Part shown: piece by piece, positions 27,608 to 29,821 of the stretch | Layout of the letters: each line of letters starts with the position of its first letter | Position numbering within the stretch: position 1 is the stretch's first letter | Notes under the pieces: generated by a model | What the model was told of the DNA's origin: nothing | Database searches by the model: none | Seen by the model: the letters and a program-made list of their open reading frames with translations, nothing else | NCBI GenBank assembly: GCA_945897985.1 | Contig: CAMDGN010000004.1 | Coordinates: forward strand, 1 to 39,839 | Source of the DNA: a candidate division WWE3 bacterium | Lineage (GTDB): Bacteria > Patescibacteriota > WWE3 > UBA101185 > UBA10185 | Length of the DNA: 39,839 nucleotides | Direction of reading: 5' to 3' | Made by a program: the position numbers and the translations under genes

Positions 27608-29716
27608 ATGGATAAAAATTATAATTTTACTCAGGTTGAAGACAGGGTTTCAAAACTGTGGGATGAGTCAAAATGTTTTATAGCAGATTCAAAATCAACT
27701 AAACCCCCGTTTTCCATTATCCTACCCCCTCCAAATGCTAATGCTCAACTTCACCTAGGACATGCTTTGTATACAGTTGAAGACGCTCTAATTCGTTATA
27801 AAAGAATGAAAGGGTTCGAAGTTTTGTGGGTTCCTGGTGCTGATCATGCTGGATTTGAAACTCAGGTAGTTTATGAAAAAAACCTATCAAAAGAAGGTAA
27901 ATCCAGGTTTGATTTCGAAAGAAATGAATTTTATACCAATATTTACAACTTTGTTCTTCAAAATAAATCAGTAATGCAGCAGCAATTAAAATCTTTAGGT
28001 TTTAGCTTAGATTGGTCGAGAGATGCTTTCACTCTGGATGAAAAAGTTATTAAGACTGTCTATAACACTTTTGAAAATCTTTATAATGACGGATTAATTT
28101 ATAGAGGTAACAGACTTGTAAACTACTGTACTAAACACGGGACAGGGTTTTCGGATCTTGAAGTAGCTTATCAAACAAAAAACGATTTTCTTTATTATAT
28201 TAAATATCAAATAGTCGGAATGGATGGATTTTTAACTGTAGCTACAGCTAGACCTGAAACTATTTTTGTCGATGTTGCCTTATGTGTAAATCCCAATGAT
28301 GAGAGATTTAAAAACCTAATTGGTAAGCAGGTTATAAACCCTCTAACTAACCAAAAAATGCCTATAATTTCGGACGAAGATGTAGAAATAGAGTTTGGTA
28401 CGGGTGTACTTAAAATTACTCCCCTACACGATTTTAAAGACTACGAAATTGCTAAAAGAAATAATCTCGAAGGTAAATCAGTTGTAAATAAAAATGGAAA
28501 ATTAAATAACAATGCCAATGAGTATGAAGGATTAAAAGTTGTTGAGGCAAGAGAAAAAGTGACTCAAAAGCTTGAAGAGCTAGGTGCTTTGATGTCTAAA
28601 AAAGAATATGAACACCAAGTCCCTTGTTGTTATAAGTGCGAAACTGCACTTGAACCAATCTTACTTCCTCAATGGTTTGTTAAAACTAAACCTTTAGCTG
28701 AAAAAGCAATAAATGCTGTTAAAAACGGTGAAATAAAAATTCATCCTGCAAGATTCGAAAAAGCTTATTTTGATTGGCTTGATAATATTACTGACTGGAA
28801 CATCTCTAGACAAATTGTGTGGGGAATTAGAATCCCTGCTTTTGAATGCCAGATTTGTAATAAATGGGTAATTTCCAAAGACTTAAACCCTGGAAAGTGT
28901 GTTTGTGGTTCTACAGAATTTAAACAGGATGACGATACGTTTGATACTTGGTTTAGTTCTGGGCAATGGCCTTTTGCTGCACTAGGTTATCCAGATAGTG
29001 ATGATTTTAAGAAGTTTTACCCTGTTACAGTCATGGAAACCGCTTACGATATTTTATTCTTTTGGGTTGCCAGGATGGTAATGCTTGGTATTTATGTAAC
29101 CGGCAAATCTCCATTCGAGCATATTTACTTACATGGACTTGTTAGAGACTCTAAGGGACAAAAGATGAGCAAATCAAAAGGAAATGTTGTAAATCCAAAT
29201 GATATCATCCAAAAATTTGGAGTTGACTCACTTAGAATGTCTCTGATTATGAGTGCCCCGGCAGGTAATGATCAGAATTTTTCTGAATCTAAACTTGTGG
29301 GTAGTAGAAACTTTGGAAATAAGGTTTGGAACATGGCTCGATTTTTATCTATGCTCTCAGAAGATTCTTATATCTTAGCCAACGAGGAGGCTAATAATGA
29401 TCTTGAAAGTATCGACTCTCAGATTTTCAATGCCCACAAAGAATTTATACAGGAAGTTAACTCTAAGTTAGATAAGTTTCTTCTTTCAGAAGTTGCCGAA
29501 ATGGCCCATTCCTATGTTTGGCATCAAGTAGCTGACATTTATATTGAAAAAGCTAAAAACCAAAAAGAATTACTCCCTTTAATTAATCATATTTTTAGAG
29601 ATTGCTTAAAAGTGCTTCATCCATTTATGCCTTTTGTAACTGAATAGATTTGGCAACAAATTTATTCTTCAGATAAACAGCCTTTAATTGCTAAATCTCA
29701 ATTTCCTGAATATTAA
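27608..29716 (+). CDS. valS: valyl-tRNA synthetase, interrupted by an in-frame TAG at 29645-29647; the reading frame then continues to TAA at 29714-29716
   Basis: PPPNANAQLHLGHAL (HIGH), GADHAGFETQ, GQKMSKSKGNVVNP; post-TAG translation IWQQIYSSDKQPLIAKSQFPEY continues the conserved ...FVTEEIW... motif. Confidence 0.85.
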
Positions 29717-29821
29717 TAACGGCTTTAACTATTCGTAAAACGGAAGCTAGGTTAAGTTTTAAAATACTTATGTTTACCACCGTATTTAATTTAATTTAAT
29801 TTGCGGATTGTGTAGGGGGAA

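Follow-up and report, generated by a model that had tools for sequence, protein, structure and literature searches.

An in-frame TAG codon within a hairpin near the end of the single-copy valyl-tRNA synthetase gene of a candidate division WWE3 bacterium

The valS gene and its interruption

The analyzed window, a 39,839-nucleotide stretch that spans positions 1 to 39,839 of contig CAMDGN010000004.1 in the metagenome-assembled genome (MAG) of a candidate division WWE3 bacterium (GenBank assembly GCA_945897985.1), includes the gene for valyl-tRNA synthetase, valS. This gene is interrupted, by a single base, by an in-frame TAG codon and is otherwise intact. The features of the locus are as follows.

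27608..29713, + strand: valS in its natural extent, as judged by the TIGR00422 score and by the corresponding end points of relatives; about 702 codons with the TAG counted, a short form lacking the C-terminal coiled-coil arm
27608..29647, + strand: open frame of 679 codons before the TAG, read from the ATG at 27608
29645..29647, + strand: in-frame TAG, codon 680, within the final helix of the anticodon-binding domain (predicted helix, residues 675-685)
29648..29713, + strand: 22 codons past the TAG, which encode the conserved terminal part of the anticodon-binding domain according to the profile score and the Anticodon_1 match
29714..29719, + strand: TAA TAA, the probable natural end of valS, based on the sequence and the end points of relatives
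29642..29667, no strand assigned: perfect 11-bp hairpin, GAATAGATTTG-GCAA-CAAATTTATTC; one of the pairs is G-U, and the first base of the TAG, T, completes the stem

When the alignment was read through the stop, the valS product scored 862.7 bits against TIGR00422, well past the curated cutoff of 612.1. It contains the catalytic domain with the HLGH and KMSKS motifs, the editing domain, and the anticodon-binding domain, the same set as in other members of TIGR00422, such as the structurally solved enzyme from Thermus thermophilus (1GAX), but carries the TAG at codon 680, reaches its natural end about 22 codons farther on, and has no coiled-coil arm. The catalytic and editing domains are whole, with the PF00133 match extending to residue 558, whereas the anticodon-binding domain is incomplete in the predicted product, as the open frame ends at residue 679 and the domain match, with the tail included, reaches residue 701. 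The TAG lies 23 codons ahead of the TAA TAA at position 29714, within the final 3% of valS. The TAG and its position had been reported in an earlier sequence-only reading of the window and were confirmed here; the frame continues past it for 22 codons, IWQQIYSSDKQPLIAKSQFPEY, up to the double TAA at 29714-29719.

That reading also regarded the downstream frame as a natural continuation of the gene, a view borne out by several lines of evidence. Reading through the TAG raised the score of the Pfam domain Anticodon_1 from 45.5 to 63.3 bits and extended its match to residue 701. Against a profile built from the tails of 135 relatives, the 22-codon tail scored 21.9 bits, and its shuffled versions (2,000 were made, of which 1,763 were reported by the search) scored 14.6 bits at most. 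The tail retains Trp682 (Trp in 124 of the 136 alignment rows), Ile694 (Leu or Ile in 134 rows), an aromatic residue at position 699 (aromatic in 133 rows), and Pro700 (conserved in 133 rows). Its codon usage score, 0.116 per codon, resembles that of the valS body (0.134) and so gives no sign of decay. Of the approximately 135 relatives, 48 end 15 to 29 residues past the column of the TAG and represent the same short, arm-less form; together with the conservation of the tail, this indicates that the intact valS gene ends at position 29713.

In-frame extensions past every stop were also scored in about 240 kb sampled from the same genome (203 genes, with the window included). Among those extensions that do not enter the next gene, the one in valS is the most coding-like, and no other short in-frame tail behind a TAG in this sample looks convincingly coding. 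A 342-codon TAG-ended gene elsewhere in the sample (L164:13540-14568) has a 56-codon in-frame extension that is weakly coding-like, at 0.04 per codon.

The TAG column in relatives and the number of valS copies

At the position of the TAG, every one of the 135 alignable relatives, which were drawn from public contigs as well as whole genomes, carries a sense codon; the nearest of them is about 53% identical to this valS, and the set includes no genome of the same genus. The residues found in this column are Glu (34 sequences), Lys (24), Ala (20), Ser (15), Arg (12), and Gln (11), as well as Thr, Tyr, His, Val, Leu, and Asn. The suggestion that the TAG falls within the most conserved motif of the protein therefore holds for its flanks, Thr-Glu and Ile-Trp, which are nearly invariant, but not for the position of the stop itself, which is variable. 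The proposed GAG is likewise one of several candidates for the earlier codon, given that Lys, Gln, and other residues occur in this column as well. A search of IMG/VR with the TAG site produced no match.

The closest valS (G055, the 53%-identical sequence) comes from another family of the phylum. In genomes of the bacterium's own family, the match to this valS is broken into two parts near residue 436, a pattern that would fit an insertion at that place in those genomes. These two observations make horizontal transfer of the gene possible, judging from sequence comparison.

The assembly is a MAG of 584,298 bases in 37 contigs, with completeness given as 92.3%. It contains a single valS, and the sequence around the TAG occurs in it only once. 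Anticodon_1 sites were found in three genes only, those for ValRS, IleRS, and LeuRS. The remaining matches obtained in the search for a second valS, which the earlier reading had called for, turned out to be IleRS (contig C9), LeuRS (spread over contigs C29 and C30), and a weak match on contig C23 that was taken to be MetRS. The split of leuS between C29 and C30 (loci L004 and L005 of the same assembly) looks like a typical short-read assembly break, the two contig ends sharing exactly 149 bases.

Both release factors are encoded in the assembly. The translated RF1 contains GGQ and has PKT where the PxT motif sits, and the translated RF2 contains SPF; we take these to be the release-factor motifs of RF1 and RF2. 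A search for suppressor tRNAs, also proposed earlier, found no CUA anticodon among the 34 tRNA genes detected in this approximately 92% complete assembly. TAG serves as an ordinary gene end, closing 28 of the 203 sampled genes, and the four neighboring genes cited in the earlier reading as ending in TAG do so when their sequences are re-read. An in-frame TAG reported near the bacterium's own prfB sits two codons before its ATG and is thus outside the gene. With RF1 and RF2 both present, no CUA tRNA found, ordinary TAG stops, and one valS, neither reassignment of TAG nor a backup valS is supported. The single in-frame TAG of valS is the only observation that favors TAG as a sense codon in this genome, and such recoding, judged unlikely already in the sequence-only reading, can be practically discounted; neither a CUA tRNA nor a loss of RF1 or of the ordinary stop function of TAG was seen. 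It is also very improbable that this valS is a decaying spare copy, with the complete gene lying in sequence that the assembly lacks. The incompleteness and fragmentation of the assembly would leave room for such a gene, but the only valS found has a frame that is otherwise open, keeps its motifs and codon usage, and contains a site that is represented once in the assembly, all of which speaks against the decaying copy listed among the earlier options.

The hairpin at the TAG codon

The hairpin, which was absent from the first reading, is a fresh observation and relevant to the origin of the change. The TAG is located in its 5′ arm. With T at position 29645, the stem is 11 bp long; with any other base there, the longest stem at this place is 5 bp. 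If the earlier base was different, the change to T has therefore raised the complementarity of an inverted repeat, as expected from template switching. Among the possible nonsense substitutions in the 203 sampled genes, 18 of 31,986 (0.06%) fall in a stem of at least 11 bp, a statistic that was found post hoc and is to be discounted accordingly. An 11-bp hairpin was not seen in any of the relatives, in which the longest stem at the matching place is 8 bp. The folding energy around the TAG is not unusual compared with shuffled sequences (z values of -0.86 and -0.28), and the region has no match in Rfam.

Quasipalindrome template switching makes inverted repeats more perfect, which is a known mark of such mutations (PMC7202029). 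The valS site resembles these mutations in that an imperfect inverted repeat becomes more perfect; it differs in retaining a G-U pair, so that the arm is incompletely copied, and in that the earlier base is inferred. A complete copy of the 3′ arm would yield TAA, whereas the codon is TAG; copying would have to have been limited to a short patch. Inverted repeats and GGC have also been linked to Illumina miscalls in an earlier study, as cited in PMC3622629. Because the T at position 29645 perfects an imperfect inverted repeat, the evidence points to a hairpin-linked origin of this base, either by a quasipalindrome template switch or by a sequencing error.

Origin of the stop codon

The most plausible explanation, to which we assign a probability of roughly 0.72, is that the TAG is a one-off consensus error, a minority-strain base, or a recent nonsense mutation, hairpin-linked and not programmed, that interrupts an otherwise intact single-copy valS. 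The first position of a sense codon (GAG, AAG, or CAG are the options for such a change) would have become T at position 29645, and this T could stem from a faulty consensus or a minority-strain base in the fragmented MAG, or from a nonsense mutation that arose recently in the population sampled. The imperfect inverted repeat may have become the perfect 11-bp hairpin through quasipalindrome template switching within the cell; alternatively, an error associated with the hairpin may have occurred during amplification or sequencing. Most cells of the species would then be expected to carry a sense codon at valS position 680. Against this explanation stand the post hoc nature of the hairpin statistic and the need for a short patch, the position of the stop near the very end of valS, which favors finding a tolerated real truncation over a random error, and the control gene ileS, which shows no in-frame stops among the matches listed.

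The main rival reading is a fixed truncation, in which a 679-residue valyl-tRNA synthetase would work adequately although its anticodon-binding domain lacks one-half of the last helix as well as the terminal segment. It draws on the closeness of the stop to the gene end, on the intact catalytic and editing domains, and on the short-form relatives that already do without the C-terminal arm, but we consider it rather unlikely. A truncated enzyme would lose the widely conserved Trp682 and Pro700 and one-half of the predicted helix 675-685, and none of the relatives ends at this point. The lost tail is still family-like and coding-like in its codon usage, so any truncation would have to be recent. 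In the structural model of the read-through protein, built from an 18-sequence alignment (mean pLDDT, 74.5), the last helix spans residues 675 to 685 and is cut by the stop after residue 679; in the model of the 679-residue form (mean pLDDT, 71.7), only residues 675 to 678 of this helix remain. Being of moderate quality, these models leave the activity of the predicted truncated enzyme undecided.

Functional readthrough or low-level suppression of the TAG, perhaps aided by the hairpin or acting as a regulatory switch, might also supply enough full-length enzyme, and the conserved tail, the position of the stop within a hairpin, and the single copy of valS would fit such a mechanism. This appears quite improbable, however, considering the presence of RF1, the lack of a CUA tRNA among those found, the ordinary folding of the site, and its lack of an Rfam match. 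Neither the TAG nor the hairpin is seen in the 135 relatives, so that the stop and its context are not kept, albeit in a set with none closer than about 53% identity; programmed readthrough of the valS TAG is possible but unsupported. It is more doubtful still that the hairpin is a control element that sets the readthrough rate, with short and full-length ValS both made and the cell thereby tuning its own valine charging. A search of the literature on stop codons in MAGs, readthrough, and recoding in this group found nothing useful.

Should the TAG prove real and fixed, this essential synthetase, encoded by a single gene copy, would either work without near-universal residues or depend on readthrough. 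The likely alternative suggests a caution for similar cases: when an essential gene in a MAG is found to contain a nonsense codon, inverted repeats and reads should be checked before suppression or recoding is proposed.

Comparable stops were found in two other valS genes. Among the best valS matches listed from 380 genomes of the phylum, two have an internal stop, the gene described here and that of another MAG of the same phylum (G305:C14, locus L233), which carries an in-frame TAA near the gene start, at VEKKIQK*QGV. The set of relatives includes a MAG of the same class (G039:C12, locus L011) whose valS has an independent mid-gene TAG, at FYPT*VMNPAYD. Recoding of TAG in the latter genome was rejected: 26 of its 110 sampled genes end in TAG, no CUA tRNA was found in the scanned part of its 37 tRNA matches, and an in-frame TAG reported in its prfA looks, on reading the frame, like the end of the preceding gene, possibly rpmE. 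Nor could valS be regarded as a hot spot for stops, since two cases among the matches listed, compared to none for ileS, are too few to matter. The TAG of G039 and the TAA of G305, each a single nonsense codon, show that such events do occur in these assemblies. They are similar to the case described here in that one stop interrupts an otherwise open essential gene; however, theirs are located mid-gene or near the start, whereas the stop in the WWE3 valS lies close to the gene end, where it completes a hairpin.
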